From Siphonodentalium dalli (taxonomy: Eukaryota; Mollusca; Scaphopoda; Gadilida; Siphonodentaliidae), in contig CP136066.1 of NCBI GenBank assembly GCA_032622095.1, positions 200,406,978 to 200,470,977 on the forward strand: a stretch of 64,000 nt of DNA, given 5' to 3'. This document shows positions 12,838 through 62,645 of this stretch, piece by piece (within the stretch, counting starts at the first letter, position 1; every line of letters starts with the position of its first letter). The notes under the pieces are model-generated. The model saw only the letters and a program-made list of their open reading frames with translations. It did no database searches and had not been told where the DNA came from. Both the position numbers and the translations under genes were made by a program.

Positions 12838-13247
12838 TTAACCCTTTACCAAACAGAACGGCCCTGTGCCAATGCATTCTCTTATATATGCGAGTCGACC
12901 ATAGGTCGCCTCGCATATATAAGAGAATGCTTTGGCTTAACACATTAAAAATTATAAAATTGTTAAAAAATGTAAGAAAATATTGTAAAAAGTGTTTAAA
13001 AAAGATTTTGTTTAGGCCAATGCATTCTCTTATATATGCGAGGCGACCTATGGTCGGCTCGCATATATAAGAGAATGCATTGGCACAGGGCATAACCGTA
13101 ACCATCACAATGTGGTCAATGAGCCGGTTCCAATGATATCCATATTTGTATGGTTTTATTGAGACAGACCCAAGATAATTTAGGCTGTTGCAGCTTTATT
13201 TGGCCGTTTTTGTCCGTTTTTGGCCGGTTTGTTGGGAAAAGGGTTCA
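12838..13247. mobile_element. TTAA MITE, family I, copy 1, with double hairpin cassette
   Basis: Left end TTAACCCTTTACCAAACA, right end TGTTGGGAAAAGGGTTCA (TTAA decayed to TTCA). It holds two hairpins (12868-12935 and 13017-13085). Confidence 0.75.
12865..12940. repeat. Hairpin cassette unit (left, copy 1)
   Basis: Inverted arms CCAATGCATTCTCTTATATATGCGAG around a ~17-nt centre GTCGACCATAGGTCGCC (arm split here for length: CCAATGCATTCTC then TTATATATGCGAG). The same unit recurs at 13017, 19740, 25497, 26539, 26824, 28439, 28713, 31138, 56390, 60283, 60402, 62261 and 62546. Confidence 0.9.
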
Positions 13248-13340
13248 ACTCAATGGTTGGCTTGTCCTCTTCTTTCATAAGTAGCGATCACACCACGTAT
13301 GTCCACCGTGAATGTACCAATGTCGTGTTTTATAGTTTTA

Positions 13341-13439
13341 TGGTGCCCATATTCAGAATGAGCAATGGGTGATGCCACAGTGTCCTGTTTTATGGTGCCC
13401 ATATTCAGAATGAGCAATGAGTGATGCCACAGTGTCCTG
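13341..13439. repeat. 52-bp tandem duplication
   Basis: TGGTGCCCATATTCAG starts at 13341 and 13393. The upstream phrase CACACCACGTATGTCC (13298) recurs at 13875. Confidence 0.8.
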
Positions 13440-14160
13440 GGCCCAAAAACAAGGTACCCTGCCTTGCTCGCCGGAAGCTTATATTATGCTAATGATGAAC
13501 AGACAGTCTGCCGTAGGAGCAGTTTTAGCCTCGGTACAACACCACATAATGCGCACGAGTGTAGACTATAAACGATATCTGATCCTACTGATGATAACAT
13601 AGGTTTTGATATGCGATCTTTATCTGTTTTTAGTGATTTCATATGAAGGGTAATAAACTCTATAAAGAATGTCCCTTTACTTAAATAACGGCGATTTGTG
13701 TGAGAAATTACAACTCCACAATAGATCAACTATTAAAACACTTCTTGGGGGAGGTTTGGGGTACGCTCTTTAAAACACTTCTTCAAATATCTCCGTCATT
13801 TAGTTAATAACAATATTTTCTTATTTTAGGAGGATCACATATTGTTTGATATCTACACCAGTGCGCGTGGCCTGATCACACCACGTATGCCCACCATAAA
13901 TGTACCACCGTCGTGTTTTATAGTGCCACCATGCTATGTTACGTGGTCGTGCTAATTTCTTATGTAATTGGTTGGTCCTGCAAATTTACTATGATGTTTT
14001 GGAGGCGCATGCTGATTTGCCATGTTGGTGTAGGGCAAACCTATTCTGATAAGAAAAAGTACCGTTATTTTTATTTGCATTTTCGCTATATTTGGCTAAG
14101 TTGAATGAATTTAGGAAAAGCCATATGTGTATAAATCATTCAACAATATGCATATAGTTA
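13440..14160. other. No gene recognised
   Basis: 13960-14060 resembles, inverted, part of 14740-15050 and the start of the 37845 duplication (GTAGGGCAAAC), so it is probably a dispersed repeat. Confidence 0.4.
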
Positions 14161-14653
14161 GATCATACCATGGATCTCTATACTGGCTAACGCCCGTAGA
14201 GATCAAATTCGACCAGTAAAACCTGGGAAGTTTTAGTGTTAAAGTTAAAAAAACAATGCAGGGAATATATTGTTTTGTTAATACGTGTTCCCCAATAATC
14301 TACTTCACATTAAGGGGTGGTCCCAGCTCAAGATTACATTCTTTTCTGTGACTTTTGTAATCCGATATCGCAATAAACATTGAATTAATTACCCAGGATA
14401 AATTCCATAATTGCAAGCGACGCAAGAGAAATCGCCCGCAATGTCACTTAAATCGTACAATTTCGAGTTGGGACCTTCACCTACAGCGACGAACATTATT
14501 GAAGAACAGGTAAAAACTAAGAAATATATTCCCCGCGATATTTTTTCAACTTTATAACGTTCTCTGTCAAAACTTAAAAAAGTTCCCAGGTTTTGTACTG
14601 TTGGAATATGATATCTACGGGCGTTAGCGAGAGTGGTGATTCATGGCATGATC
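14161..14653. mobile_element. Foldback MITE, family C, copy 2
   Basis: Same arms as 5167-5681 (CTAACGCCCGTAGAGAT, CCTGGGAAG); ~493 bp. Confidence 0.8.
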
Positions 14654-14699
14654 TATCATATAGTAAAATGTTATCATAATGGTTGTGTTTGTTGTTGCA

Positions 14700-15690
14700 A
14701 ACCGATCACAATTTAGATGATTATACATGTCGATTTACAATCACCAGCGCAACCATTATTAAATTATGTTAAAATATATATGTTATTGACTGTTTCATGC
14801 CGGCACTGGCTTTTTTCAAAATCGCTCGGATTAGTCAAACATCCAGAAAATGACAACTTCAAAAAACTAATGGTACTTTTACTTAACAGCATCAGTTTGC
14901 CCTACCAACATCATAGCAATTCAGCAGGACTGCCAGCAGCATAGCATACTAGCAGTGCCCATCAACAAGATAGCAATTCAGCAGTTCCCATCAACATCAT
15001 ATTATAGCACATGCGCGGGACTACTTAACCAGGGGTGGGTCAAACTCTGATCAGATAGTACTGATATAATGCTATATAGTGTTGGTAAAAGTTGTTCCTG
15101 TTGGTTTAGCTATATGCTATTGGAAAAAGTGTGTTTAAAGTGGTAATGTACGCCATTTTCAATAAATTAACGATCTAATATCGATAATATATAGAAAAAT
15201 AAGTAATTTGAGTCGAAGATGTATTCTGTGAACGATCAGGTTAATATGTTATCTTAAAATCAAAGTTAATAATTTGATATAAATTTAATTTATGGCTGGA
15301 GCGATAAATTAAAGTACGAATGTTCGTGTACCAGACGCGATCAAATTAATTAAAGGACAGTGGATTGGTGAACGCACGGCACACATGATCGTGCAAAACA
15401 GTATGTTGATACGGGGAGTAAACTCAAGACACTAACAGACTAGACTAGTGACTATACAGTAACTTAAATGAGTATGTGGGGCTATTATGCATATAATATA
15501 ACTTTTATTTTATACATTTGCTTGAAAACTGTACAAAAATTATTCGAAAACGAAAATTTGTATTTTCGCATTCCGACTAATTTGCTATCTGTAACATTAC
15601 TTCGTACTCAACAGACTTTCAAATAATGGACAAATGGTTACCTTATTCTACGACCCAGAGACTATAGAAATCAACAACAACATTTGAGTA
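14700..15690. repeat. Dispersed repeat piece plus unannotated DNA
   Basis: 14740-15050 is an inverted relative of 37845-38160 (CAGCGCAACCATTATT, AATCGCTCGGATTAG, TTTGCCCTACCAACATCA). The rest, 15060-15690, shows nothing recognisable. Confidence 0.45.
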
Positions 15691-15700
15691 CAGTATCCCT

Positions 15701-16167
15701 TTAAAGATGCATAATCCGATTAATAAGCGCCCCTTAGTTACTATTTATTTGGTTTCGGTGGTACTACATATTTGGTTTGAGTCGAGGAACCAACCTATCA
15801 AAGCTCAGAGTTATTAGATATTGATTTTTTAAATCTATTATTTTTGACCATCGAGACTTAATAGTGGCCCAGTAAAAAGTCGACGATCCGACGCTATATG
15901 ACCAAATTGCGGATGAAGATGGATAACTCTAAAATCAAGAGGCTTTGTGTTGATAATAAGGCCAAATTTCGTCGAACAACATGTTGATGGATAACACGTT
16001 TCGGGCAATTTTATATTATAGTTGACAGCGATTAGCATTATTTTTGGGCAATTAATCGATTCTGATCATTGAAGCAGCATTTCTAATAAAGCAGTTGTTG
16101 TTGTTGTCGACGTCGCTGTTGGAATCTGATTATATGCGGACCATCAAATCGGATTGAGTACCTTTAA
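15701..16167. mobile_element. TTAA MITE, family F, copy 1
   Basis: Bounded by TTAA at both ends, with right end CGGATTGAGTACCTTTAA. Interior landmarks: GAGTCGAGGAACC, CTCAGAGTTATTAGATAT, GTTGTTGTTGTCG. Confidence 0.7.
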
Positions 16168-16169
16168 CA

Positions 16170-19697: not shown

Positions 19698-19893
19698 TTA
19701 ACCCTTCCATGACTGGAGCTTCCTGATTTTTACGAAAACCCTGTGCCAATGCATTATTGTATATATATGCGAATTTCCCATAGTGAGCCTCGCATATATA
19801 AGAGAATGCTATGGTCTAACAATATTTACATTGACCTCATTATCCATGATAGTTAATGCTGCACCAGCGCAGCTCCCGTCATTGAAGGGTTAA
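19698..19893. mobile_element. TTAA MITE, family J, with single hairpin
   Basis: TTAACCCTTCCATGACTGGAGC at the left (shown here as TTAACCCTTCCATG then ACTGGAGC) and TCATTGAAGGGTTAA at the right. Contains one degenerate hairpin at 19740-19815. Confidence 0.7.
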
Positions 19894-20234: not shown

Positions 20235-20487
20235 ACAATCCATAGGGAGTCACGCATATATAATAGAATACAATGGCCTAACAATATTTACCTTGACCTT
20301 GTAGGTCATTATATTCTCTAATATATGCGAGAATACATTGGTCAAACAATATTGCCTTGATCTTGTAATCCAGAGTATTATCTTATATGTGAGATGCTCC
20401 CTATGGGAGAGTAGCATATATAAAAGAATAAACTGACACAGGATCATTAAAACTGCACCAGCGCAGCTCCCGACATGAAAGGGTTAA
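20235..20487. mobile_element. Decayed family J element with several hairpin remnants
   Basis: Right end CATGAAAGGGTTAA at 20474-20487 and GCGCAGCTCCCG shared with 19698-19893. Three degenerate CATATATAA...AGAATA hairpin arms. Left end not found. Confidence 0.5.
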
Positions 20488-24361: not shown

Positions 24362-27300
24362 CTGAAATTCAACATAAGCTTTTCGTTTAACATATATAAA
24401 CATTAAGCATGAGTATACACAAGCCTTGAAATAGGGTGTCTGTCGTTTTCAGAATGGGGCCACCAGTGGGTGAATTTAGTGATGCTATCCCGCATAGCGG
24501 GCTAGCATCACCAAATTCACCCTCTGGGAACCTCATTCTGCTGATGTGTAAGCAGAAGGAGGTCCCCAGAGGGTGTGCAGGCTAGCATCACCAAATTCAC
24601 CCTCTGGGGACCTCATTCTGCAAATGACAGACACCCTATTTCAAGGCTTGAGTATACACTGTGACCTGTCAATCTATTTTATATTAGGACAGCATATCAT
24701 CGTGCAAATAAGTTCATATTGGACCTATATGTATTCATATAGGTTCATATTGGACTTATTTGATTTTAAAATAAGCCCATATAATGGACTTATACCCGTT
24801 ATTCCGTTTTATGGCGCGAGCATCTGGTAAGTCTATGTAGGTTCATAGGCGACAATTGCAAATGTGTCATTATCGATATTAGAAATAAACTATATTATGT
24901 TTGTTATTATGTTGTTTATGATATATATGTTCGTTATTTTCAATTGTTCAGCTGCCACAAATTGGTGTATTGGAATACATATATCTATCTATCTATAGAT
25001 CGTACTTCAGATTTAAATAATGCCGATATGGGTTTATTTGCGTGTTTGAAATAAGTTCATAGGAAGCTTATTTCCAGAATAACAGGCTGATTAGGGACAG
25101 ACTAATGTGTTCTAGTTGTGGGCTGACATCCAACCCGAGCTCTTAATCAACACAAAAAGATAGTCTTTTTATTTAAAGGGGTATTGTGCCCTAAATCCGG
25201 TCATTTATGAGACCATCTCCTTTTAACACTTTCAGTGCCAGGGGCCGATCTCATCGGCCCTAATTTACGGTCTGTAAAATCAGCGAATTTAATAACAAAC
25301 TGGATAAAACCTTAGGGGCATGTTATAACTCAAAACTATCAACACGTATTCATAGTAATAATTTTGATGCCCATGAAAAACTTAAGATTCCCTGGCACTA
25401 AACCTACAAAATAAGTCTGTTAAAGAATATAAGAAAAGATTATTAAAATTGTAAAAAATTGTAAAAAATAATAACAAATGATGAAAAATTGTTAGGCCAA
25501 TGAATTATCTTATATATATGCGAGTCGAACTATGGTCGACTCGCATATATAAGAGAATGCATTGGCACAGGGTATATGGGTTGATACAATAATCGGACCT
25601 GGCACTGAAAGGGTTAAACTCAACATAATATATGCAACAAATGAATAATTACCACTTTGTTTGCATCGTTCATAGAGCACATGAGTGTTCTCTGCAGTAG
25701 TTCATGGCTCGAATTAATTCATTTGTTGCATATATTTTGTTGTATATAAAAGGAGATGGTCCCATAAATGGCCGGATTCAGTGTACAGTCCCCCTTTTAA
25801 GATTTTGGTCCGTTACAATTCATTCTGCATTATTCTAAGAAACCGATTGACCCATATTTATTTGGAAATTGGCCAGATCAAATCCACAGAAATAGTAACA
25901 AACAAAAGTCTTATATAAACAATGTTAGATTTATTGACATTATACATACGTGACCGAACATAAACAATTAGGAGCGCAATCATTGAATGTGTCATAACCA
26001 CAAATGTTTTACTTAATTGAATTTACTTTAACGTTGGGCGTAACTTGTAAGTCACTTTGGGCGAACTCCGTGTCGTAGTTAAGGTCGAGGTGGTGGTCTC
26101 GTGGGGTAATCACATACAGACCGGTAAAGTTGGGCGTAATTTGTACAGTAGTGAGGTGGATTGATGGGTTTAGTCTATACTCACCGTTCACGTTGGGCGT
26201 AATTTGTACTGTAGTGATGTGGATTGATGAGTTTAGTCTGTACTCACCATTCACGTTGGGCGTAATTTGTACTGTAGTGATGTGGATTGATGTGTTTAGT
26301 CTCTACTTACCGTTCACGTTGGGCGTACTCAGGTTGCGGTGGTGGTCTGGTGGGTCTATCCTCTGGGATGTAGCTGTGTCCTGGTAAGACTGGATATTTC
26401 CTGTCGTCATAGTATTCATCTCGTCTATATCCTTGGTTATTGTAAGGAACCATGTCCTTAGATCTGGAGATACATTCAAATACATATGTGACCCGCCATA
26501 TCAAATCCAGTCGTAATTCGGGATTTTTTTTACCCTGTGCCAATGCATTCTCTTATATATGCGAGTCGACCATAGGTCGCCTCGCATATATAAGAGAATG
26601 CATTGGCCTAACAATTTTTATCATGTTTTTAAAATAAATGTTTCTTACAATTTTTAGGATGTAAAATAAAAAACATCCATTACCCTGCAGGGAGCCCCAC
26701 ACATATATAGAAGCATATAGAAGAGTGTCGTCTGCTCATGTTTGTCTGGGGCTCTGTATGGGTGAAATTATAAAATTGTTAAAGAATACAAGAACAAATT
26801 ATTAAAATTGTAAAAAATTGTTAGGCCAATGCATTCTCTTATATATGCGAGGCGACCTATGGTCGACTCGCATATATAAGAGAATGCATTGGCACAGGGT
26901 AAAAAAAATCCCGACTTACGACTGGATTTGATATGGCGGGTCACATCTTAGGCTGTATGTGAGCTGTCAGCCATTCGACTATTACTAGTCACAATACAGA
27001 TTATATATTAGGCTACATGTGAGCTGTCAGCCATTCGACTGTTACTAGTCACTTCTTTTTTGTAATGGATTCACGCAAAACCTTGAGGACGTAATCGGCG
27101 GAAATATTGGTGTATTCTTCTCTTTTTTGTTCTTCTTTTTTTTATTGAGAATAGAGAATAACAAAGGAAGAAGACAAAATGCATGCACGCAATCATTCTC
27201 TCAATCCAGGTCATGGAAAAGCGTAACTCTTCCATGCCCTGACCTACTTTCTTGCTTGTGACATGTAATTATAAAATATTAAAGGCACATACTGTGTTCA

Positions 27301-30300
27301 GAAATTGTTTACAGATCCTATATATTACCTTGACATATTATTGTCCGAAAAGGGCTTTCTTTAGCAAAACAATTGTGATAGATAATACTAAATTAATATT
27401 TTGTCATCAGAAGATCTTTAAATTTCGCTAAAGTGGTCGATTGTAATATTTAAGATTTGCAGAATCAGAGTTCCAAACACTATGTGCAGCTTTAATTAAT
27501 TTAAGTTCTGAGGTTACCATAACTAATATAATTAGTAAACTTAACCACATTGAAACTGTATTGTAAATATTGAAAATATTGGTTCGACGACAATCGGAAA
27601 ATACACAACGCTCGCTTCGTTTGCGTTTCGGACTGTGGCTGAAAACTGCTGTGATGTGGTTTATTCTGTCAGAAATATATAACTAGAATAAAGTTGCAGG
27701 CTTATATCAAAATGACAAGTTACTTCGTGGTCTTCGGAAGGAACTTAAAGGTACTCAACCCGATAAAACTCCTCTCAATTACTATTTCAATGGCTTCGGG
27801 GGTCAAAAATATTTTATTCGAGTCGAGGAAGTCACCCATCAAAGCTCAGATTTGTTAGATATCGATTTTAGAAATCTATTATTTTTCATTATCGGGAATA
27901 CTATATGGCCCAGAACGTTGTCTGTTTGAATAGATTCGGAGAACACATCCAGAGCAGATTACGGCAGTTAGTAGTACTGATCTCGAGTTTATAACAAATT
28001 TCAAAAATCAATATCTAATAACTCTGAGCTTTGTTTGATGGGTTCCTCGACTCGAATCAAATTTTTTTTACCCCCAAAGCCAAAGAAATAGTAATATAGG
28101 ACCCTCCGATCGGATTGTTGTTGTTGGAATCTGTTGAGATGGGGACCCTCTTTACGGGTTGAGTACCTTTAACTTGTTCTATAACAGAATGTTTGTCCTA
28201 ATTCATCTAATTCGCAGCACTAACTTTCAGTTTTCTTTGATCTTTGAATTTATTCAACTACTCATTTTCGCTTTTCTCCTTAAAACGTGTCACATGCATT
28301 CGACGTATCCGTTGTCGTATTTAAGGGGAGGTCATGTGACCAATTTTGAATGGGGATTTCCATGCAAATTTCCGGAGCAAATTTTATGTATGAAGTAGTT
28401 GTTCGGAAACTTCGGGAATCACTGCTTTTTTTACCCTGTGCCAATGCATTCTCTTATATATGCGAGTCGACCATAGGTCGCCTCGCATATATAAGAGAAT
28501 GCATTGGCATAACAATTTTTATCATGTTTTTTAAATAAATGTTTCTCACAATTTTTAGGACGTAAAATAAAAAAACATCCATTACCCGCAGGGAGCCCCA
28601 CAAATATATAGAAGCATATAGAAGAGTGTCGTCTGCTCATGTTTGTCTGGGGCTCTGTGTGGGTGAAATTATAAAATTGTTAAAGAATACAAGAACAAAT
28701 TATTAAAATTATTAGGCCAATGCATTCTCTTATATATGCGAGGCGACCTATGGTCGACTCGCATATATAAGAGAATGCATTGGCACAGAGTAAAAAAAAT
28801 CCCGACTTCAACATTGAACAGTGATAACGTTTTAACTGGCAGGTGCGCTAGGTAAATTATAAATTTTTGCAATAAATACACTTTTGAATTTTTTTTGCTG
28901 GAATTACATCACACGACCTACATTTGAAATATCCATATAAAATTCAAAAATAAATACACCAACACTATAATGGGACATGTTACATGCGGATACCACACCA
29001 AGTCACACACAGACGTATGTGCAACTCTGTAACTTTTCCTCCGCAGATTTGCATGGAAATCCCCATTATAAATTGCATGGTCACTTGACCCCCCCCCCCC
29101 TTAATTTGAACCACAAATGTGTCTATAGTTCGGGAAAGAAATGTAGCTTAGGATAATTGCAAATCAATGGCATCAATTGCTGCAAATTTATAGAAAGGGG
29201 CCAAATTCATACGCTGAGATCAGTTATAACCCTTTCTAAATACAAAGTGGATTATCCCACCGAGTTATAAGAAGATATATTGGAATGGTCTATTATTCAT
29301 TTGGAGGGATATGTTCAGGAAAAATGAGCAGATGACAGAGATACGAAAAGATAATAGAAGTGCAGCAGGATTACTACTAACTGATGGGCAAATGTTCACA
29401 TAATAAGTTCAACAAACGACAGGTGGTCGTTTGTTGAATTTATTATCTGAACATTCCATAATGGATATACATAATCGTCATTCGTCAATGAGTAGTTCGT
29501 ATAGAGAGGGCTTAACTAAACAGGTAATCAATGTGAACTTTTGCGATATGAGACATTTTTGGGAATTATTGCGGGTAACGAGTTGGCTCAATATATACCT
29601 GTTGTAATCCGAAACTATGGAATCTTCTTTGTATTCGATAATGGACCTGAAATTAACACATACATTTAAGATATGCACTTACGCGCATGTACAAAGGTAG
29701 TCAAAGTTGATATTGGCAATGTATTTTAATACATCAAATGCCGTCAGCCAATGAAATCGCTTCTATAAAAAAAACTCAATTGACAGTGTATTGTTTGAAA
29801 CATATTACCCACTGCATGTATGTCATATATGTATTGAGATTTGCATATACTCTGCTCTATTTTGTAATGCCATGTCATGAAGAACATTAACATTTCTTCG
29901 GCTTCGGGGGTAAAACAATATTTGATTCGAGTCGAGGAACTCACCATTCAAAGCTCAGAGTTATCAGATATAGATTTTTGAAGAAAAAAAATCACCAAAT
30001 TGCGTTGAACAAAATGTTGATATATAAATATAGTTTTGGCAATTTTATACTATATAGTTGACAGTGGTTAGCAATATCATTTTTGAAAATTTATCGATCC
30101 TGATAACTGAAGCGATATTTCAAGAAATGTTGTTGTTGTTGTTGTACGACATACCTTGGTTGAGCTGAATTCGGATCATTGGTTACCCTCGGAAGCTGGG
30201 GTGACTGGGATACGTTAACGACCCTCGGAATAGCAAATGAATTCATCCTCACGTCACCCAGTACGTGTAGGTTCCGAATGAACTTTCACGACAGTATCTT

Positions 30301-31016
30301 TATGTTTAGGACGTGGTTTGACTTTGTATACATATCCACATTCCATATCGTCGACTTAATGTCATGCAAATCCTAATGACAAATTATTGTTCTGGATTCA
30401 TTGCTAGTATGCGCTCTGCTGCATATGAATGGCCGGATACAAGTTGCTTTGTGTAATTATATATATGGAGTATACTCCGTGCCAGTCCTGGTGACGATAG
30501 TCACGACCCCATCACTGAATGAGTACCTCTTCAGGAGACTCCATTCTAATAGAGTCATTATAGACCTTAAGTTATCGGAATTTCATAGATGTAGATTGAT
30601 AGCGAGTATATGTGGCCAATTAATTTTGAGGTTCGTGTCATAATTAGGAAACTCGGTCGAGCGATCGATCGCATTAAGTCCACTTGATCCACCTAATAAT
30701 CAGTTTATTGCAAAATCTATGATTTAACATAGAACATGCGAAATATATATCCATTATCAGGCAACTATAATGGCCATACTATTATACTCATGCCACGTCC
30801 ATAATACATATATTATGTATATGTTATGCAAGGTTTGCGCTGCCGCCTGTCAAATGAAAAAATAATTCACATTGGGCAATATTTAATTAATTATTTTCAT
30901 TTGCAAAAGGTTTTCGCTACTGAGTTCTTATGTATGCAAGAAAGTATAGACTATTTCTTTTAAAAAATTACTGGAGCTTCCTGAAGTTTTGCGAAAACCC
31001 TGTGCCAATGAATTAT

Positions 31017-31081
<65 letters not shown>

Positions 31082-34000
31082 GAGTCTCCCATATATGAGA
31101 GAATACATTGGCTTAAAAATATTTACCTTGACCTTGTTAGCCAGTGCATTCTCTTATATATATGAAGCTCCATATGGGCTCGCATATATAAGCGAATTCA
31201 CTGCCACATGATTTGTAATGCTACACAAATGTTGTTGATATTATTTTGTGGTTAATAAGGCCAACATGTTGCTCTGTTCGCTTAGTATATATATTTATAT
31301 CGCGGAAGTCCACCAAATGTGGGTAACATATCGCCGTAGCAGCGATCTTCGCGTCACCAAGGGAGGTAAACCCTGCATGGAGTTTAGCATGTACTTACGC
31401 TCTTCGTCGCCGCCTCCGATGGTCGAGACAGAGAGCCACGATGATGATGGCCAGGACTATGAGAACCAGACATGCTATGCCCACCGTGACCCCGACGATG
31501 AGTTTCTGTTTTTCAGTTAGAGCCATCCCGCTGTCTTCTGGTTCGTCAACAGCTTTCGCTATGATTGAAATATGGTTTATGTATTAATAAATTATAAATA
31601 TGTTTCATGGATCCCAATTGCATATAATAATTGAAAAAAACTATTGAACTAAATACCATATGACTTGCCGACAAATTTCATGAGTTTTTAATATTAATTT
31701 TTATCGGGAAACACTGTTTAAAAGCAACTGCACAATTTGAAGACGTGACAAATCACTGCACTGTTTTCTATTTAATAGATAGAGCACGGCTTGGTGTTCA
31801 CTACTCCGGTATAGTGCCCAGTGGGGTGGGTATAGTTCACGAATCGAAGCGAGTTAATGATCAGGGGACCTCAATTTTCCAGAAATATAATCCAGTATGT
31901 CACATTAAAGGCACGGTTGGCCTTAGTTGTCGAAAATATTCATATTTGTTCCAAACACCATAAACAGACAAACATTAAAACGCATACAGTTTCGTTCATA
32001 TATACCATTACCATCGCGTAAACAGCATGCTATCATAAAGACTTACTATATTTTACATAAGCAAGAGCCTGATTATGTTACAGAAGACAACACAGTGTCA
32101 CTGGCTAATCACACACAAATGATATAAACGCTCTTTATTACTTCCATATCAGGAATTCAGCAACAAAGAACGCTCTTTATGTTTACCATCATAATATAAA
32201 CAAACACCAGAAAAGTAACTTGTTATGCTTTTATTTACATAACAATGGTCAAACAAATGACAATAACATACTGTTTATGCGATATTTCTTATTTGTATAC
32301 GGACAAAGTCTGTCTAAATTTTGATGTTCTATCTGTTTGTGGCGGTTTTTGATGGGTGGAAATATTTTCACAGGATACCCACCGCCAAGGCCAACCGTAC
32401 CTTTAAAGGTGTATACCGTACACTAAATCCGGCCATTTATGGGACCATCTCCTTTTATACTCAACAGAATATATACAACAATTGAATGAATTTGAGCCAC
32501 GGATTAGTGCAAAATGCACTCTATGAACGACGTAAACAACATGGTAATTATAATGAAAATGAATTTATTACTCCAGCCGTTTATTCATTTTCATTACAAT
32601 TACCATGCTGTTTGCATCATTCATAGAGCACGTGAGTGTATTTTGCACTAATCCGTGGCTCAAATGCATTCAATTGTTGTATATAGTCTGTTGAGTATAA
32701 AAGGAGATGGTCACATAAATGGTCGGATTTAGTGTACAGTACCCCTTTAACCTCTTCGCTGCTATGACGTCCGTAACTATTACGGACGTAAAAGTGCACG
32801 CCGTGTGCTATATGGTCCGTAGGTACTACGGACCTACTTCAGCACACTAGCAGTAGGCCATTATACATAACTGGAACTCAGAGATTGGTGCATCAGAATA
32901 ACTGTATCTCCAAGTTTCTAACAGTGTATGATGTTCCACGATTGTGAACGATAATAGTCTTTCAACCGAGTCAGTTTTATGGTTCTTGTGGTATTCCCGT
33001 TATAGTTTCCCATTGGAAAATGACAATAACGTCAACAGCCCAGCACACGACGTCATAACGTCATTTAGCAGCGAAGGGGTTAAGAATCATCTTCTTGCCT
33101 GACATCTTGTTGCTGTGGGGGATTATTACTGGCTGTGCATGTAGAACTAATCCTATGATTACCGGGAATGATGTTATGGTCACTCAACATGTTGTCTGTT
33201 TGTTGTGTTGTTGACAATGAACATTGGGTTTTGGTTCTTTTGTGACAATTATACCTGATTTGGTGAGATCATGTGTATCGGAGGAGATTTGAAGTTTCAT
33301 CGTCTTTAATTGGGATTAAATTCCTAATTTTTAGGTTCAACTATGGTGTTGATATTGCATGCATATACAACAGTTTAGTGGAATATGCATGGCTCTGTGC
33401 CCTAAGGTTGTTGGTCCGAAACAAAAACCTTTTCACCATCACATAATTTCTGCACATCAACTTGTTTGAACCTCACCCGCTCTGGTCATAAACCCGTCCA
33501 GTTTCGTCGAGAACGCGTAATGTCAGCACCGGTGTTTTTAAATTTAATTAAACGACAAGTAACCAATACAAATCGCACATCAGTGACATCACCAGATTAA
33601 TTTATGTCCTTCTCGTAACGCGCGTAACAATCCTTAAAGTACTGATTTATTGATGATTGATTGAATGATTGATTGATTGATTGTCGTTTTAATCGATGTG
33701 CCATATCACCGACCAATAACATAATCATGTGCAAAAAAGATCACAGCGAAGCAACTGTGCAGATAAAATTAATGCGATTCTTCTCGGCAACATCAGCACA
33801 TTTCTTTCTTTCGAGAATGACACTTGGGCACAGTTAATTGTATTATCTTACGCTTTTCTGAACTACGGCTCACAGCTCATATATACGAATTCGCTTGGTC
33901 ATGGACAGACACATTCGTGAAACGACTCAAATCGCAGCTGAAAGCTAAAGCTGAGAATGTGCATTACAATATGAAAAGGACATGTATAATAACTCTCGAT

Positions 34001-37632: not shown

Positions 37633-39819
37633 TTGGTGTGACAATCACGTCAAACGTCTAATTATATAAGGGCATGGTGAATAATTGAAGCAATGAACAC
37701 CCATACTGAGTTCGTGCCTCCATGTATAAGATATGTATATTTATTTATCTCCATGAAGCCACGAAATGTCTATCGTTCGACTAGGTATACAGCGAATTCA
37801 CCCCTGGTCGCGTGGTCCTGCTAATGTGTTATGATGTTGGGAGTCCAGCTGAATTGCTATGATGCTGGTAGGGCAAACTGATGCCGTTACTAAAAAGGAC
37901 CTATTATTTTTTTCTGAAGATGTCATTTTCGCGGTGTTTGGCTAATCCGAGCGATTTGAGAGAAAAAAAAAACCAGCGCATGTATGCAACATTTAAGAAC
38001 ATATATATTAAAAAAAACAAGTAATAATGGTTGCGCTGGTGTTTGCGAAAATGGCAACTTTAGAAACAATAATGGTACTTTTTCATTACAGCATTTATCA
38101 GGACCTACCAGCATCATGGCACATTACCAGGACCACTTGACCAGGGGTGGAATTGTGCCGAGTCGTAAGTTAATCAGAAACATATCGAAACAGTTATGTA
38201 GCCTACAACTTATAATAAATAAGATTCAAACAACAAATATGTGTGAATTAATTGAGACATGGTCGATGCATGGCCATTTCGCAGTCTGGACTCCTCGACC
38301 TATATGACCTCTGGGGCCTAGATCTCGGGTGTAATTAGAATTAATTTTTCGCGGAATGATATATCCAGATCTGGAAGAAAAGTATCACCACCGTACAGCC
38401 GACGTCCGCATAAAATGGTCCGATTACTTGTATTGTTATAACTTATTGACGATTTATTCGATCTAATAATTATGTATGCATGGTTCATGATCTTTGATCA
38501 CAAATTATCCTGAAACATGGACCAATCATCCTATTTGAATGCCGTTGGTAGCACCGATTCACGGTTTCTGTTATCGACAACGCCGGCACATCGTCGACGC
38601 ACCATTGTTGAATGTTGTCACCTCGCAACAATAGCGCTATTTGTCGTGTCTGGAACATTCAATTTAGGCCACGCGGTAATTTCATTCATATATATATTTT
38701 ATAGACTATTCTATATCATTGTTGTAAAACAAAACTTAAATAATGCTTAAATAATTAATATTAAATGTAAATGTTTTCGTACCCACGAATCGACGAAATA
38801 CAACTAAATTCAAAAATGCGCGCCTATCCTTGACCCAGTCACCCAGCTCAAAATAACGTGATACAGTTCGAGCCAACCATATGTATGGCGTTGCATTGAA
38901 GCTGAGTCTGAAACGGAACGGAATCTGACATTTGTTCGCGCTCACTGAAGCAAGCGCATTTGAACCAATGAACGCTCATAAACTGAGTCCGTGCCTCCAT
39001 GCATATGATGTATATTGAAGAAAAGGAAGGGCGTTCGAGCGATATGAGATCTAGTCCGCAAATCTGACTTTTATTATCAGAGCATGGCTCCATAAAAGTC
39101 AGCCAGGTATATCACTGAAAGCAGTACTCCGTCACCAATCATTGGTATGGACATTTACTCGACTTTTCACAAGCGATAACACACACTAAAAAATATTATT
39201 TAACAACCAAAACTCCCACATACTTGTAGATCAGAGCTTCTAGTACATTTCTAGTGTGTTGTCAATGCATGTTTAAGATGTTAGTCGTGTCATTCTTCGC
39301 ATAAAGCGAGAGCATATTTCTACCGCCTCGAACTTTCAGCCATTTTGTATTTGCAAAAATCCGTCAAAACAGTGAATTAGGAATCGGAAACGGAACGAAC
39401 ATAATTGGATTCCGGCTATAACATGTTCTTGTTTGTTTCGAGTTTATTTTCGATTCAAATATTTATAAACATGAGAAATAAACTTAATGATTATATATGT
39501 ATATATGCATGTAACCATTTCATAATCACCATCGTCATCATCCGACATCAACATATTATTATTAAAATCATCATCGCCATGATATCATCATAATATATCA
39601 TCAAATCAATTTTGTTCAAGGGCGTGGCTAAAGTGTCTTATTAAGTGTCCAAATTATTATTCCAACCTCTTTCCATCCTAATTGAGTGAGAATTTTCCAA
39701 ATTGACACCTTAACTTACCAACTGTCGTCAAATTGTAATATAAGGTAGCCATACGGTCACTTATCGGCGTAGGTAATCGGCTTTAACTAATTGACGACTC
39801 TAAGACTATAATATTCAGA

Positions 39820-40913: not shown

Positions 40914-42308
40914 ATCGGTTTCGACTCCATATTGTCGCTAATGCTTTGTCAACGTTATTGGCACGTAAATCTTATGTAAGCATAGCGATGGCGACGTGGT
41001 CGGAACTTGGGCGTTTGATACCGAGACCACTATTTGAATATTAATGTGTGTTCCAGAACGAAAAAATTGACAAATTTGTGAATTTAAAAACAGTTCAAAC
41101 GTTAGTGTATTCCATGCCTCAGCCCGGACATATATACAAAATTTCATTAATATCCATTGAGAAACAACGGTCCAAACATATAACACCCCGTTTACACATT
41201 TTATTTGGAGCCGGCCACGGCCTTGGCTTACACTTTATATTGTGTCCCCGCACATATCGCCACGCCCTTGGTCATTGTTTCTTTGAAATCAAACTCCATT
41301 GTTTATTAAAACTTAAAATTCAAAAATGATTTGTTGCTGTTGCTTTCACTCGGTCGATCGTTCCCGTAATTATCTGATCTTCTTTCCGGTTATGTAGTTG
41401 AAAGTTCGTTCCGCCTTTTCCGTTCCGTCAATTTACTACAGATCAAGTTTTAAATGTTGACAAATTAACGGTCTCGGATTTATCTCAAAGTTCGGATTAT
41501 ATTTCAAGAGTCAGGTATTGTACACAATGACTTCGTAATCTGCCACTATCACTTGACCTTACAACATAATGGTAGCAGATAAAACCATCTAGTTATATGT
41601 GAATTTGGTGATTGAAATGAGGCGGGGTAGTGTCTATTTTTTCCCGAAATAGTTTTTCGGCAAGCAGTCTACCATGTATTTTTAAAACAACTACAAATGT
41701 CACATTTTTATTTTTTTCGTCGGGTAGCTTGTTGATACTCACTCAGAACAGATTAGTCTTCAACATAATTTATATACAATGTTTGTATTTTCATGTTATA
41801 AGTGGGAACAAAATTCATAATAATGGAAAAGCACTTGGAGGTCGTGAATAAAGCTACGGCGGCCCAACTATTCGAGAGCGTCTAGCTCTGTTTGAATAGT
41901 TGGGTTCACCAACTATATGAGATCATGCAATGAATATCCACTATAACGGGCGTCAGCCACATATAGCTGCATGGCAAGGTCTAGAGCGGTATGAGCAATC
42001 CAGTCCATGTGTCACTGAGATTTGTATTGTATATAGTGTCGTATCGTATACTGTGCACCAGACGCAGCTTCTATAAAGACATGTTACACAAAGTCCTCTC
42101 AGTCAATTTATAATTATCAGATAACACAGAAATCATTTATAGCATTTTCCTTTCAATTAAGGCGTTATTTTGTTAATGGAAATATGCATTGGGTCGGAAA
42201 GATGTAGGCTGGAAAGGTGAACGCCATTCACGAATACAATATAATGCACGTAAAATTATGAAATTATTTTGAATATAATTGTAATAAAATGATTGTGTTT
42301 ATTTTCGT

Positions 42309-42939: not shown

Positions 42940-45156
42940 CCAGCTGAATTGCTATGATGCTGGTAGGGCAAACTGATGCCGTTACTAAAAAGGACCTATT
43001 ATTTTTTTCTGAAGATGTCATTTTCGCGGTGTTTGGCTAATCCGAGCGATTTGAGAAAAAAACCAGCGCATGTATGCAACATTTAAGAACATATATATTA
43101 AAAAAAACAAGTAATAATGGTTGCGCTGGTGTTTGCGAAAATGGCAACTTTAGAAACAATAATGGTACTTTTTCATAACAGCATTTATCAGGACCTACCA
43201 GCATCATGGCACATTACCAGGACCACTTGACCAGGGGTGGAATTGTGCCGAGTCGTAAGTTAATCAGAAACATATCGAAACAGTTATGTAGCCTACAACT
43301 TATAATAAATAAGATTCAAACAACAAATATGTGTGAATTAATTGAGACATGGTCGATGCATGGCCATTTCGCAGTCTGGACTCCTCGACCTATATGACCT
43401 CTGGTGCCTAGATCTCGGGTGTAATTAGAATTAATTTTTCGAGGAATGATATATCCAGATCTGGAAGAAATGTATCACCACTGTACAGCCGACGTCCGCA
43501 TAAAATAGTCCGATTACTTGTATTGTTATAACTTATTGACGATTTATTCGATCTAATAATTATGTATGCATGGTTCATGATCTTTGATCACAAATTATCC
43601 TGAAACATGGACCAATCATCCTATTTGAATGCCGTTGGTAGCACCGATTCACGGTTTCTGTTATCGACAACGCCGGCACATCGTCGACGCACCATTGTTG
43701 AATGTTGTCACCTCGCAACAATAGCGCTATTTGTCGTGTCTAGAACATTCAATTTAGGCCACGCGGTAATTTCATTCATATATATATTTTATAGACTATT
43801 CTATATCATTGTTGTAAAACAAAACTTAAATAATGCTTAAATAATTAATATTAAATGTAAATGTTTTCGTACCCACGAATCGACGAAATACAACTAAATT
43901 CAAAAATGCGCGCCTATCCTTGACCCAGTCACCCAGCTAAAAATAACGTGATACAGTTCGAGCCAACCATATGTATGGCGTTGCATTGAAGCTGAGTCTG
44001 AAACGGAACGGAATCTGACATTTGTTCGCGCTCACTGAAGCAAGCGCATTTGAACCAATGAACGCTCATAAACTGAGTCCGTGCCTCCATGCATATGATG
44101 TATATTGAAGAAAAGGAAGGGCGTTCGAGCGATATGAGATCATGCAATGAATATCCACTATAACGGGCGTCAGCCACATATAGCTGCATGGCAAGGTCTA
44201 GAGCGGTATGAGCAATCCAGTCCATGTGTCACTGAGATTTGTATTGTATATAGTGTCGTATCGTATACTGTGCACCAGACGCAGCTTCTATAAAGACATG
44301 TTACACAAAGTCCTCTCAGTCAATTTATAATTATCAGATAACACAGAAATCATTTATAGCATTTTCCTTTCAATTAAGGCGTTATTTTGTTAATGGAAAT
44401 ATGCATTGGGTCGGAAAGATGTAGGCTGGAAAGGTGAACGCCATTCACGAATACAATATAATGCACGTAAAATTATGAAATTATTTTGAATATAATTGTA
44501 ATAAAATGATTGTGTTTATTTTCGTTTAAAGGCACGGACGGTGTTCATATTTGTTCAAATCGCCATCAACAGAAGGAATATTAAAAAAAATATATATTTG
44601 TTCACGGCATATGCCAAACATAATCAGCGCGTAAATAGTATATTGTCGTCAAGACGTACGATGGTGTACGAAAACAAGAGCCTGCTCGTGTTGCAGAAGT
44701 TGTGCTTCTGTTTACATAACACAGCGCAATTATATTGGTTAATCACAAACAAACGATATAAACGCTCTTTACATTTTCCATATCAGGAAAACAGTAACAA
44801 ATAACGCTCTTTATGTTTACCATATCCGGATATAAACAAAAGCCAGGTAACGTAACGTCGGAGGTGAATATTTTAACAGCATACCCACCGCCAACGCCGC
44901 CCGAATCTTTAATTCATAGCAAAGTATATATGGTCTAGCAGCGTGAATTTAGTTACTTATTCCTTATTCCTTATTCAAAAAATTTGGGGAAATGTGGCAA
45001 ATGACCATGGCAACGTCTTAAGTAGGGCGAGACAAAACTTCCTGTGAATTTTTTTTTTCGAAAAAAAATTCAAAAATGCACGAAATTAGGCAAAGTCCGA
45101 AAATGAACGGAAATTGGCCGAAACAAGTGCGGGGCCATAAATGGCCACCTCGGCCA
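42940..45156 (+). repeat. Segmental tandem duplication, copy 2 (blocks A'-B')
   Basis: Head-to-tail with copy 1, lacking M. Very few differences from copy 1 (for example tctgg/tctag at 38651/43741), so it is recent. Confidence 0.9.
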
Positions 45157-49010: not shown

Positions 49011-49049
49011 ACGTTCAGACGACCACGATTCAATCGTAAGTGGCGGAAT

Positions 49050-51065
49050 CGGGCCCGTCGGCCAATTTCCGTTCATTTTCGGACTTTGCCTAATTTCGTG
49101 CCACATTTCCCCCAATTTTCCTGACCGAGCAGAGCGGGAATTTCTATTTGACCCACTTTATGGGACTCGACCCAAAAACTTTTCAGCCCAAAAAGTTCGG
49201 TCCAGGTGGCCATTTTTTAATATGTGACAGTTTGCCACATTTTCCGAAATTTTCCCGACCGAGCAGAGCGAAAACTGGGATTCGACCCACTTTTTCGGAT
49301 TCGACCCAAATTTTGTTCGGCCCAAAATATTTGGCCGAGGTGGCCATTTATGGCACCGCACTTGTTTCGGCCAATTTCCGTTCATTTTCGGACTTTGCCT
49401 AATTTCGTGCATTTTGGAAAAAAAAATTCGAATTTTATTTTTCACAGGAAGTTTTGTCTCGCCCTACTTAAGACGTTGCCATGGTCATTTGCCACATTTC
49501 CACATATTTTCCTGACCGAGCAGAGCGGGAATTTCTATTTGACCCACTTTATGGGACTCGACCCAAAAACTTTTCACCCCAAAAAGTTCGACCCAGGTGG
49601 CCATTTTTTAATATGTGACAGTTTGCCACATTTTCCGAAATTTTCCCGACCGAGCAGAGCGAAAACTGGGATTCGACCCACTTTTTCGGACTCGACCCAA
49701 TTTTGTTTCGGCCCAAATATTTTGGCCGAGGTGGCCATTTATGGCCCCTTACTTGTTTCGGCCAATTTCCGTTCATTTTCGGACTTTGCCTAATTTCGTG
49801 CATTTTGGAACTTTTTTTCGAAAAAAAAAAATTCACAGGAAGTTTTGTCTCGCCCTACTTAAGACGTTGCCATGGTCATTTGCCAAATTTTCCTGACCAA
49901 GCAGAGCGGGAATTTCTATTTGACCCACTTTATGGGACTCGACCCAAAAACTTTTCAGCCCAAAAAGTTCGGTCCAGGTGGCCATTTTTTAATATGTGAC
50001 AGTTTGCCACATTTTCAGAAATTTTCCCGACCGAGCAGAGCGAAAACTGGGATTCGACCCACTTTTTCGGACTCGACCCAATTTTTTTCGGCCCAAATAT
50101 TTTGGCCGAGGTGGCCATTTATGGCCCCGCACTTGTTTCGGCCAATTTCCGTTCATTTTCGGACTTTGCCTAATTTCGTGCATTTTGGAACTTTTTTTCG
50201 AAATATTTTTTTCACAGGAAGTTTTGTCTCGCCCTACTTAAGATGTTGCCATGGTCATTTGCCACATTTCCCCAAATTTTCCTGACCGAGCAGAGCGGGA
50301 ATTTCTATTTGACCCACTTTATGGGACTCGACCCAAAAACTTTTCAGCCCAAAAAGTTCGGCCCAGGTGGCCATTTTTTAATATGTGACAGTTTGCCACA
50401 TTTTCAGAAATTTTCCCGACCGAGCAGAGCGAAAACTGGGATTCGACCCACTTTTTCGGACTCGACCCAATTTTGTTTCGGCCCAAATATTTTGGCTGAG
50501 GTGGCCATTTATGGCCCCGCACTTGTTTCGGCCAATTTCCGTTCATTTTCGGACTTTGCCTAATTTCGTGCATTTTGGAACTTTTTTTCGAAAAAAAAAA
50601 TTCACAGGAAGTTTTGTCTCGCCCTACTTAAGACGTTGTCATGGTCATTTGCCACATTTCCCCAAATTTTCCTGACCGAGCAGAGCGGGAATTTCTATTT
50701 GACCCACTTTATGGGACTCGACCCAAAAACATTTCAGCCCAAAAAGTTCGGCCCAGGTGGCCATTTTTTAATATGTGACAGTTTGCCACATTTTCCGAAA
50801 TTTTCCCGACCGAGCAGAGCGAAAACTGGGATTCGACCCACTTTTTCGGACTCGACCCAAATTTTGTTTCGGCCCAAAATATTTGGCCGAGGTGGCCATT
50901 TATGGCACCGCACTTGTTTCGGCCAATTTCCGTTCATTTTCGGACTTTGCCTAATTTCGTGCATTTTGGAACTTGTTTTCGAAATTATTTTTTTTACAGG
51001 AAGTTTTGTCTCGCCCTACTTAAGACGTTGCCATGGTCATTTGCCACATTTCCCCAATTTTTTTG
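49050..51065 (-). repeat. ~390-bp satellite array, family K, about five copies
   Basis: TGGGACTCGACCC recurs at 49161, 49552, 49933, 50322 and 50712 (spacing 391, 381, 389, 390). Each unit is itself two diverged halves (CTGACCGAGCAGAGCGGG and CCGACCGAGCAGAGCGAA). The long frames on both strands are repeat artefacts. Confidence 0.9.
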
Positions 51066-55544: not shown

Positions 55545-56210
55545 GTAAAACGGGTCGTCCTGTCTGGGTGTCCGCCTAATATCCTCAATAATTATAAAAA
55601 AATGTCAACTCAGCCGAATATCTCCCAGTGTATCTTATAGACCACAAAATGTCCTTATTTTTATATATAACTTGAGAGAGTCATTTGAAGCGAAGTCCAC
55701 ATATTCATTATGAAATCGAGCAGCCAGAACTAGTTGGGATGGAAGCCCGCTGTCAGCAGTTGTCGTTTTCGGTGCCACCATTCTACGTGGATCGTGGACC
55801 TTGGCCCAACGTTATCAAAATGGTACCACTTAATTCTTCCGTGGTCGCCCTCTACCCAAAAGGTTGTCATATATAATCTGTGAACTACGTTACAGTAGTG
55901 TCGACTAGTGTCCAGATGTTTAGAACTCGAGCCGCCATCATTACGAACATTTAATTTATATATCGGCTGTCAGTCTTTGTGAATGGTGTTGTACCTGGTT
56001 GTATGGGGTTTCACTGGTATAGCCTAACTATATTTTATTAGGCATGTGAATCTTTCACCGCAAGCTGAACGGGGATATACAAGGTTTTATCTAGTTGGCC
56101 ATAAAACTGTCAGAAGCATCCGGCGACAAGGAACTAAAATAACTTGGATAACTTTGTGTTCGTGACTCGGCACAATGTTACCAGGAGTTAAAGATGCGCA
56201 TTCCGATTTA
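55545..56210. other. No gene recognised
   Basis: A 63-codon frame at 55685-55876 has no recognised domain. Confidence 0.35.
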
Positions 56211-56212
56211 TC

Positions 56213-56465
56213 CATTACCCTGCAGGGAGCCCCACACATATATAGAAGCAAATAGAAGAGTGTCGTCTGCTCATGTTTGTCTGGGGCTCTGTATGGGTGA
56301 AATTATAAAATTGTTAAGGATTATAAGAAAAAATTATTAAAATTGTAAAAAATTGTAAAAAATAATAACAAATGATAACAAATTGTTAGGCCAATGCATT
56401 CTCTTATATATGCGAGGCGACCTATGGTCGACTCGCATATATAAGAGAATGCATTGGCACAGGGT
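56213..56465. mobile_element. Half hairpin cassette (interior plus one hairpin)
   Basis: Starts CCCTGCAGGGAGCCCCAC, the interior segment shared with 26680, 28590 and (inverted) 62395-62475, then one hairpin 56390-56460 and ACAGGGT. Confidence 0.75.
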
Positions 56466-57359: not shown

Positions 57360-57642
57360 TTAGTTAATACTGTTATAAAGTAAATACCAATGGCTTAATG
57401 GTGTAAAAATTATTTGAATCGAGTCGAGGAACCCGCCCATCAAAGTTCAGAGTGATCAGATATCGATTTTTCAAATTTTTTATTTCTCGAGATATGTAAT
57501 TGTTTCCGCCTGAAAAAATTCGTAAAGGCGACGGTCACGGACCAAATTGCTGATGAAGATGGATAACTCGCTGCATTTCAAAAAATGTTGGTGTTGGAAT
57601 CTGATGATGTGGGGACCATTGAATCGGATTGAGTATCTTTAA
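57360..57642. mobile_element. TTAA MITE, family F, left-truncated
   Basis: Right end CGGATTGAGTATCTTTAA; left end not found. Confidence 0.6.
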
Positions 57643-57661
57643 ATTATTATATGTGATTGTC

Positions 57662-58165
57662 GATGTTTTTGACGATTCTCAGTGGTTTGTTGTGATTCTC
57701 TGTGTTTTGTGACGATTCTCCGTGGTTTGTGGTGATTCTCGCTGGTTCGTGGTGATTCTCGGTGTTTTGTGTCAATTTTCAATGGTTCCTGGTGATTCTC
57801 GGTGTTTTGTGTCAATTCTCAATGGTTCGTGGTGATTCTCGGTGGTTCGTGGTAATTTTCGGTGTTTTGTGACGATTCTCGGTGGTTCGCAGTGATTCTC
57901 GGTGTTGTTTGGCGATTCTCTGTGGTTCACTGTGATTCTCGGTGGTTCTCGCTGATTCTCGGCGTTTCGGGTGATTCTCGGTGATTTTCGGTGGTGATTC
58001 TCGGTGATTCTCGGTGATTCTCAGTGGTTCGCGGTGATTCTAAGTGGTTCGCGGTGCATGATTCTCAGTGGTTCGCGGTGATTTTCAGTGGTTCGCGGTG
58101 ATTATCAGTGGTTCGTGGTGATTCTCAGTGGTTCATTGTGATTCTCTGTGGTTCATGTTGATTCT
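57662..58165. repeat. ~20-bp minisatellite (GTGATTCTCGGTGGTTCG)
   Basis: About 25 imperfect units of a ~19-21-bp motif. Confidence 0.9.
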
Positions 58166-58169
58166 TGGT

Positions 58170-58750
58170 GAGCCCTAGTCAGTCTCAGGGATTGCTGTCC
58201 TGTCGATTCATATTAATCCGCTCCACGCCCACACCACTTCGCCGTGGATCACCGTAAAAACACCACCGTGAATCCCAGTTATCCACAGTGGGCGTATAGT
58301 CGGTGTCCCACCGGTGTTGAGTGTTTTTATTATCGCACACTCTTTACGTTATGTACATATTTCGTATGACTTTTCTAATAAACTTACAGCCTGGTTGATG
58401 CAAGTTTGTTCATCATAATTATCGGTGCGCAGAGAAAGGGCTTACCGCGTCAGATGGTTAACCACAACATAAACAATTTACTTCAATTTAATACTAGAAT
58501 TCAACTCACCCATCGTGTGTGTTGATTTCTTAATCTGGCGTGCGAATAACTCCGAAATAACGATGCGAAATAACGAGTAGCCAATTAATCCGATTTGTGT
58601 GACAATATAGGTACTTTATTATCAACTAGTAAACTGGTTGATACCAATTCGGTCCTCGTATCCGGGAACATGTCGTCTCATTGTGGGGCTGAAACTGCTT
58701 ACCACTACATATCGTAGGCAATACATAAATACCGGATTTAATCGACCAAG
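58170..58750. other. No gene recognised
   Basis: A minus-strand ATGG|gtgagt donor-like site at about 58513 resembles the one at 62690; no exon could be defined. Confidence 0.25.
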
Positions 58751-60139: not shown

Positions 60140-60497
60140 TTAACCCTTTACCCAACAAACCGGCCAAAATCGGCCAAATAAAGCTTCAACAGCTTCGGTC
60201 TGTCTCAATAGAACCATACAAATATGGATATCATTGGAACCGGCTCCTTGACCACATTGTGATAGTTACAGTTATGCCCTGTGCCAATGCATTCTCTTAT
60301 ATATACGAGTCGACCATAGGTCGCCTCGCATATATAAGAGAATGCATTGGCATTTGTTCTTACAGTCTTTAACAATTTTATAATATTTAATGTGTTAAGC
60401 CAATGCATTCTCTTATATATGCGAGGCGACCTATGGTCGACTCGCATATATAAGAGAATGCATTGGCACATGGCCCTTCTGTTGGGTAAAGGGTTAA
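60140..60497. mobile_element. TTAA MITE, family I, copy 2, with double hairpin cassette
   Basis: TTAACCCTTTACCCAACA at the left, TGTTGGGTAAAGGGTTAA at the right, intact TTAA both sides, hairpins at 60282-60353 and 60401-60470. Interior flank (GGTTCCAATGATATCC type) is inverted relative to copy 1. Confidence 0.8.
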
Positions 60498-61051: not shown

Positions 61052-61181
61052 TCTCTCTATCTATCTATCTACTTATCTCCCTCTCTCTATCTCTCTCGCA
61101 ATCTCTATCTCTTACCCCCTCCCTCTCCCCCTCTCTCTATCTCTCTCGCAATCTCTATCTCTTACCCCCCCCCCCCCTCTC

Positions 61182-61246
<65 letters not shown>

Positions 61247-61261
61247 CTCTCTCCTCTCTCT

Positions 61262-61300
<39 letters not shown>

Positions 61301-61329
61301 CTCTCTCCTCTCTCCTCTCTCCTCTCTCT

Positions 61330-61371
<42 letters not shown>
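61052..61371. repeat. CT microsatellite
   Basis: About 320 bp of CT/TCTC with runs of C; gives long Ser/Leu and Arg/Glu frames. Confidence 0.95.
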
Positions 61372-61373
<2 letters not shown>

Positions 61374-61564
61374 GCATTTATTTACTCAATATTGTCTTTT
61401 TCTGCATTCTGCATAAGACTCGGTGGCCGGATATGATGTGAACTAACTATACGTGAGAAGTAAACACTCATTAGTTTCACCTGCATGTGCATGGCGATGC
61501 TACCGAAATGTGTCTGTAAATACCATTCAATTAGCTCACAAGAATCAATCATGGAGGTACTTGA

Positions 61565-61675
61565 AGGCAAATTCATGGCTCAAATTCATTCATTGGTTGC
61601 ATACATACTGTTGAGTATAATATGAGATGATCCCATAAATTGCTGGATTTAGTGTGCAGTACCGTTTTTAAGATT
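61565..61675. mobile_element. TTAA MITE, family G, half copy
   Basis: Only the right arm (GGCTCAAATTCATTCATT ... GTGCAGTACCG). Confidence 0.6.
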
Positions 61676-62208
61676 TCCTACTAAAATAAACGATTCCTTC
61701 TGCACTTGTATTAATGTATTATCTATCGTCTGCTTACATTTCCTGAAAACCCCTCCTGATAAATAATAGACCATTCCGACGTATATAGAAAGTGTATATT
61801 GCTTGCTGCCAAGTCATCATATCGGACCGTGAACCAGTTGACTATAATTGTGTTGCTGAAAGTGTTTATCACGACACATATTAAGGGCGTGCGCCAATGC
61901 ATTATCTCTTTCTTTACTAAATGGATCACCCCATCAGTTATACGTTGGAGTGGTCAATTTTTCAACAGGATGGATGTTCAGGAAATATAATCAGACGACA
62001 GGCAGAGGAACATATTATGAATGTGTAGATGCTGTATAATAATTTGCGATGTAGATCATAGACCTATAGCAGATCGTATATTGTCGCGCTGCATTGAAAC
62101 AACTAAACAGTTGCAGTGTGTGGCTAATATAACATCAAATGTGTCTCAGTTGTGTGACTACACATAAGTATATCACTAACAGTGTCGAAAATATTTTATT
62201 TGAATATA

Positions 62209-62645
62209 TGTGACCCGCCATATCAAATCCAGTCGTAAGTCGGGATTGTTTTACCATGTGCCAATGCATTCTCTTATATATGCGAGTCGACCATAGGTCG
62301 CCTCGCATATATAAGAGAATGCATTGGCCTAACAATTGTTTACAATTTTAATAATTTTTTCTTGTATTCTTTAACAATTTTATAATTTCACCCATACAGA
62401 GCCCCAGACAAACATGAGCAGACGACACTCTTCTATATGCTTCTATATATGTGTGGGGCTCCCTGCAGGGTAATGGATGTTTTTTATTGTATGTCCTAAA
62501 AATTGTAAGAAACATTTATTTAAAAAAAAAGATAAAATATTGTTAGGCCAATGCATTCCATCGGTCGCCTCGCATATATAAGAGAATGCATTGGCACAGG
62601 GTACAAAATCCCGTCTTACGACTGGATTTGATATGGCGGGTCACA
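62209..62645. mobile_element. MITE, family A, copy 2
   Basis: Same ends; TA-rich flanks (ATATA on the left, TATATA on the right). The right-hand hairpin has lost most of one arm (CCAATGCATTCCATCGG). Confidence 0.85.

Follow-up and report, generated by a model that had tools for sequence, protein, structure and literature searches.

A palindromic core common to MITE families with different outer ends in Siphonodentalium dalli, possibly spread by recombination and nesting

MITEs can be nested or composite, a short element lying within another and the composite then being amplified, and the ends of piggyBac-like MITEs start with CCC after TTAA. To our knowledge, how new MITE families with new ends originate is an open question. 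Nested, multimeric and composite MITEs are described, for example, in the part of PMC5907723 that deals with TE arrays in guayule and rice. Kolobok elements are characterized in the corresponding sections of PMC9587614 by a TTAA duplication with 5'-RR ends, and the same sections present KolobokP as a composite-like, protein-coding element with direct terminal repeats of ~450 or 660 bp, for which the authors propose that unequal crossover leads to multimers.

The DNA analysed here, a 64,000-nucleotide stretch of the genome of the scaphopod Siphonodentalium dalli (the window), contains elements that differ from nested and composite MITEs in that one hairpin core is common to several families, with a common edge, and in that one exchange of outer shells at the hairpin could be read. 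Families I, J and N are like piggyBac-like TTAA MITEs in having TTAA ends and beginning with CCCTT, and unlike them in that each carries a palindromic core near its end. The likeness to KolobokP, as portrayed in those sections of PMC9587614, lies in the composite-like architecture, whereas the core is built of inverted 75-bp hairpins and showed no gene inside. We regard the chances as roughly balanced that these elements hold one ancestral core whose shells were exchanged by recombination and nesting.

The original prediction, made from the letters of the window, described a near-perfect palindrome of ~75 bp in more than a dozen copies, and this was borne out far above the level of shuffles. 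A profile built from 12 window hairpins gave 17 separate matches in the window, the arm CCAATGCATTCTCTTATA matched 30 times with up to 3 mismatches (shuffle expectation 0.11) and the hairpin centre 11 times (0.03 expected). All five of the predicted mirror-image pairs were found; they comprise 10 of the 17 hairpins, with arms starting at 12869/13017, 26540/26826, 28441/28717, 60284/60400 and 62261/62546, the last of these hairpins (62546 arm) having ~20 bp deleted. A lone hairpin folds at -36.1 kcal/mol (z = -13.9), with 32 paired bases per side, one T-C mismatch and a 3-base loop. Searches returned no Rfam family at the gathering score, no Pfam match for 10 ORFs searched out of 65 listed, no match for one exact 24-mer in viral contigs and none in phages, and a literature search, judged by titles and abstract openings of the records listed, found no publication on this hairpin.

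Intact hairpins are polar, with CCCTGTG on the outer side and CCTAACA or a near variant usually on the inner side. Because CCCTGTG lies outside in the pairs, each "double hairpin" forms a single core whose inverted ends are themselves palindromic, arranged as hairpin, AT-rich spacer and mirror-image hairpin between the bounds CCCTGTG...CACAGGG. The window has 16 core ends, of which 11 have the exact CCCTGTG, 4 differ from it at one base and 1 has degraded further.

The I elements of the window lie at 12838..13247 on the reverse strand (TTAACCCTTTACC ends, one mutated; hairpins 12862-12936 and 13016-13090; I12 below) and at 60140..60497 on the forward strand (hairpins 60277-60351 and 60399-60473; I60). 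The J elements are all on the forward strand: one at 19698..19893 has TTAACCCTTCCATG / TTAACCCTTTCATG-like ends and one old J-type hairpin (19739-19814), the second hairpin being absent; another at 20240..20487 is without its left end and has degraded hairpins, the last at 20370-20442; and in a remnant at 30967..31210 one hairpin (30998-31112) has been expanded by a (TA)n run, with the second at 31140-31210. The N element (25223..25617, reverse strand; N25) has TTAACCCTTTCAGTGCCAGG ends and a single hairpin at 25496-25572. The A elements, both on the forward strand, occupy 26487..26945 (TGTGACCCGCC ends; hairpins 26533-26607 and 26825-26899; A26) and 62209..62645 (hairpin 62254-62328 and a second, partly deleted one ending at 62601; A62). 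The Kolobok-like R element at 28321..29104 (forward strand) has TTAA-GGGGAGG ends and contains a captured, truncated A fragment at ~28426-28808, with hairpins at 28434-28508 and 28716-28790. Finally, a half core at 56210..56464 on the reverse strand (S56), with its shell unassigned, consists of one hairpin (56390-56464), the other part being absent.

The outer ends originally proposed for I, J, R and A were found as described, while the "nested" end, read from 25617 downwards, is TTAACCCTTTCAGTGCC and not TTAACACTTTCAG; we have renamed this family N. J, I and N begin with TTAA-CCCT, with TTAA-CCC present in all three shells apart from single-base variants, A begins with TGTGACCC, and R begins with TTAA-GGGG. 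TTAA stands at both ends in 6 of 8 aligned I copies (of the exceptions, one is altered and truncated at the locus edge and one is mutated at one end) and in 7 of 12 N copies, the other 5 having one end altered or not reached; in J, TTAA ends are present and often decayed. To judge by end sequence and TTAA, I, J and N are piggyBac-like MITEs. The Kolobok-type end of R reads TTAAGGGG in 6 of the 8 other copies that reach it and is altered in 2, and its TTAA and 5'-RR ends would make R Kolobok-like. A Tc1/mariner-type MITE would have a TA target duplication; the two bases flanking A, read by eye in six copies with both ends, were TA/TA in 2, TT/TT in 2 and mismatched in 2.

The genome comprises 2,226,750,531 bases in 9 contigs. 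The 18-base arm occurs in it 322,838 times as an exact match (161,504 forward and 161,334 reverse), compared with no exact match to the reversed arm used as a control. In 230 kb sampled from 30 places (L009-L038, the only spread samples), 30 hairpin matches were confined to 7 of the 30 stretches; extrapolation gives ~290,000 hairpins per genome, a rough figure since hairpins cluster. Taking these 230 kb and the window together, 47 hairpins were found in the shell context of J (14), I (13), A (9) and N (2), with 8 unclassified and 1 cut by an edge; one A-labelled end among them belongs to the R copy, which has 18 bp in common with A. The remaining loci were chosen by exact matches to the arm (L001-L008 and L039-L058), to N ends (L059-L078) or to J centres (L079-L098), in each case from the first listed places on C1, or as 9 of 36 other R places (L099-L107) from a search in which 40 out of 192 candidates were scored.

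The original prediction placed the cassette inside unlike vehicles, and the core is indeed common to families with different ends; in R, what is held is a captured fragment only. The core looks integral to I, N and A. Among the ends listed, long I ends led into the core in 9 of 9 cases and A ends in 7 of 7, and an A palindrome lacking the core had no match in the genome by exact pattern. The 20-mer at the N end has 13,508 exact genome matches, and among 20 places fetched all 19 readable ends lead straight into hairpin sequence, some of it partly deleted; L063 and L064 retain a longer part of the core than the other N copies covered end to end, which have part of the core besides the hairpin.

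For R, the search that gave L099-L107, made with the joined flanks (40 out of 192 candidates scored), yielded 42 match rows: two core-bearing copies account for 4 and the 36 other places for the rest. All 9 of these 36 that were fetched are free of the hairpin, and R is rejected as a hairpin-owning family. The insert in the window R reads T7A-core-TA8TCCCGACTT, a truncated A piece that replaces ~9-15 bp of R, the figure varying with the alignment used, so that the core in R is a capture. It does not provide the solo cassette with its own target duplication that had been suggested as a check, being a fragment of A without a duplication. The only other core-bearing R copy among the matches listed, on C5, was considered as proof of transposition and rejected: its flanks match as well (1,251 bp at 99.4%), which makes it a segmental duplication.

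Two hairpin types can be told apart, the J-type centre TCTCCCATAGGGAGC and the A-type centre TCGACCATAGGTCGC differing by two compensating base pairs. The J-type centre occurs as 10,119 exact 21-mers genome-wide, and all 20 loci picked by it have, on by-eye reading, a J shell or a decayed J remnant. The A-type hairpin accompanies the A, I, N and R shells, and also occurs with a few that are J-like (L041, L019 3404); in L041 a J shell is joined to an A-type hairpin. The exact 75-bp A-type sequence was found in at least one copy each of A, I, N and R, and both hairpins of the solo candidate L011 are one base off it.

Exchange between the two types was read at L010, which has a 608-bp repeat (offset 520 bp, identity 97.5%) whose junction falls inside a hairpin. 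The shell at this hairpin agrees with A at 46 of 46 positions and with J at 10 of 46, and of the 8 informative sites within the hairpin, site 30 is that of A and sites 36, 37, 46, 52, 59, 68 and 72 are those of J. L010 thus shows a crossover inside the hairpin, near its tip, after which an A shell sits on a J core. The pattern fits unequal crossover of A and J hairpins, and a template switch during replication would look identical. Of the moving, converted or selected module originally envisaged, its presence in families with different ends is supported, and exchange by recombination was read directly once; upkeep of the arms in single copies by conversion or selection is not supported.

Under a single ancestral core with exchanged shells, the ancestral element would have contained a hairpin, an AT-rich spacer and a mirror-image hairpin bounded by CCCTGTG...CACAGGG. 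The most diverged, and presumably oldest, form of this core would be the inside of the piggyBac-like J family. The younger I, N and A would have all or some of the core, the hairpin centre changed yet still palindromic and the shells different, and would multiply as whole elements, core included. Hairpin exchange, nesting and internal deletion may have brought the core into each shell, and I, N and A may have arisen from a J-like core by repeated exchange or nesting. Against shell exchange, a single crossover has been fully read, and homologous exchange alone leaves the first joining of shells at the same CCCTGTG unexplained. A more specific and more doubtful proposal is that the hairpin acts as the joint, breaks or stalled forks at the common palindrome letting unrelated MITE families trade outer ends; if this were true, new MITE families would arise via shell swaps onto a common core, not by mutation. 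With ~323,000 exact arm copies, at least 4 shells plus a capture, and a readable crossover, end-swapping is testable in one genome by counting discordance of shell and core.

The edge of the core bears on a tentative alternative, to which we give rather low credence, namely that the core is or was a TA-inserting MITE of its own, bounded by palindromic inverted repeats (CCCTGTG...CACAGGG), that inserted itself into other MITEs and was from then on spread with them. The CCCTGTG edge is common to J, I, N and A, and an exact edge is typical of a transposon end; that the shells join at the same CCCTGTG points to an old transposon end, and this explanation draws most of its strength from it. TA also flanks the core in A, in N, at the 56464 end and in the solo candidate (L011 6944-7305), but the I edges and left J edges are without TA, and the TA beside T-runs in A and L011 may be part of A. 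It is further weakened by the R copy, with its 18 bp of A shell and no duplication, and by the hairpin-free A palindrome, which had no genome match to the exact pattern (a gapped pattern run without a positive control, which mutated empty copies would escape).

A single ancestral core with exchanged shells was also weighed against an unlikely explanation in which selection acts on the hairpin in the source elements, where it might for instance bind transposase, start replication or give rise to small RNAs. The two compensating pairs between A-type and J-type centres favour it, as does one further compensating pair between J hairpins 1 and 2 (columns 11/78: A-U in 7 and G-C in 6 of 18). However, covariation over 18 hairpins (1 A-type, 17 J or J-like) was by no measure clearly above shuffles, the observed values being reached by 28, 34, 79, 144 and 167 of 500 shuffles, and template switching, in the part of PMC8794818 that concerns hairpins, can create compensating changes too. 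Hairpin maintenance by template switching, as outlined there, could explain compensating changes in both arms. Unlike the outcome of complete template-switch correction, the T-C mismatch beside the centre persists in both hairpin types, so hairpin correction is incomplete here.

Divergence speaks to selection as well. Arms had been predicted to match better than their surroundings, and several comparisons between families and subfamilies agree: A26 and I12 are 98.7% identical in the hairpin against 76.4% in the spacer (72 aligning positions, p about 1e-7), A26 and I60 98.7% against 72.3% (47 aligning positions, p about 1e-7), and A26 and R 99.3% against 92.3% (p=0.0016), this last contrast favouring a selected hairpin. 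The corresponding figures for A62 and R, 95.4% and 90.8%, do not differ significantly (p=0.14) and count against it. The prediction failed for A26 and A62 (96.2% and 96.3%) and for S56 and N25 (94.7% and 93.8%), with no significant difference in either pair, and within J.

In J copies, changed sites made up 127/1,634 (7.8%) of the arms and 137/1,678 (8.2%) of the rest (p=0.70), or 6.9% and 7.4% without CpG (p=0.58), over 16 of 20 loci (L082, L088, L089 and L091 were dropped for short alignment) and with the 21-base centres excluded; equal divergence of arms and flanks had been named beforehand as one of the outcomes that would refute the original reading. J copies therefore decay freely, which argues against a selected hairpin and means that families resemble each other so closely in the hairpin on account of their source elements and not through maintenance of single copies. 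Private changes in I likewise showed no significant difference (hairpins 12/1,118, rest 32/1,882, p=0.21), while changes shared by at least two I copies are fewer in hairpins (4/1,118 vs 25/1,882, p=0.011), in favour of selection.

Private changes in N are fewer in the hairpin (0.76%) than in the AT-rich inner part (1.98%, p=0.001), a point against shell exchange, although the set of 25 copies is biased, some having been chosen by exact arm match and T-runs aligning badly. Among 20 N copies chosen regardless of the hairpin, indels occur in 4 hairpins, and the remaining 16 carry 9 substitutions in 1,200 sites. That N copies covered end to end contain just one hairpin is a further argument against selection. 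Conversion or selection acting on every copy is rejected on the J divergence and the private changes in I, with N pointing the opposite way in its biased set. Conservation thus lies mainly at the level of the source elements, most clearly in J, through recent common spread or constraint there, and a palindrome that is well preserved between families need not imply maintenance of each copy.

Descent of all families from a single element through mere decay of its outer ends is highly improbable: J, I and N do start with TTAACCCTT or close to it, but A does not, the shells are different all the way to CCCTGTG, with an almost identical core inside, and end decay is refuted for L010, where the shell swap is recombination, and for R.

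One J element, at L043, contains a tandem array of hairpins with a 97-bp unit.

Near the start of contig C1, one of the nine contigs of the 2.23-Gb genome, matches to the 18-base hairpin arm between about 727,000 and 926,000 recur at a spacing of ~14,558 bp and then of ~11,175 bp, which suggests long tandem duplications carrying hairpin elements. Within the window, two pairs of 300-bp stretches are 100% identical (37966-38265 and 43056-43355; 41915-42214 and 44132-44431), and both are possibly recent duplications.

Outside the hairpin elements, the window contains a tandem repeat with a unit of ~390 bp, present in 5 copies at 49036-51054; a minisatellite of ~10-bp period with GATTCTCGGTG-like units occupies 57626-58211. 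The J hairpin at 30998-31112 contains an expanded (TA)n run of ~60 bases within its arm. At L010, a stretch from the spread genome sample, A-type hairpins at 6345 and 8899 flank ~2 kb of internally repeated sequence (6430-8600); its units resemble GGCGCGGGCTACAGGTCGTA, and it may be a satellite that was captured.
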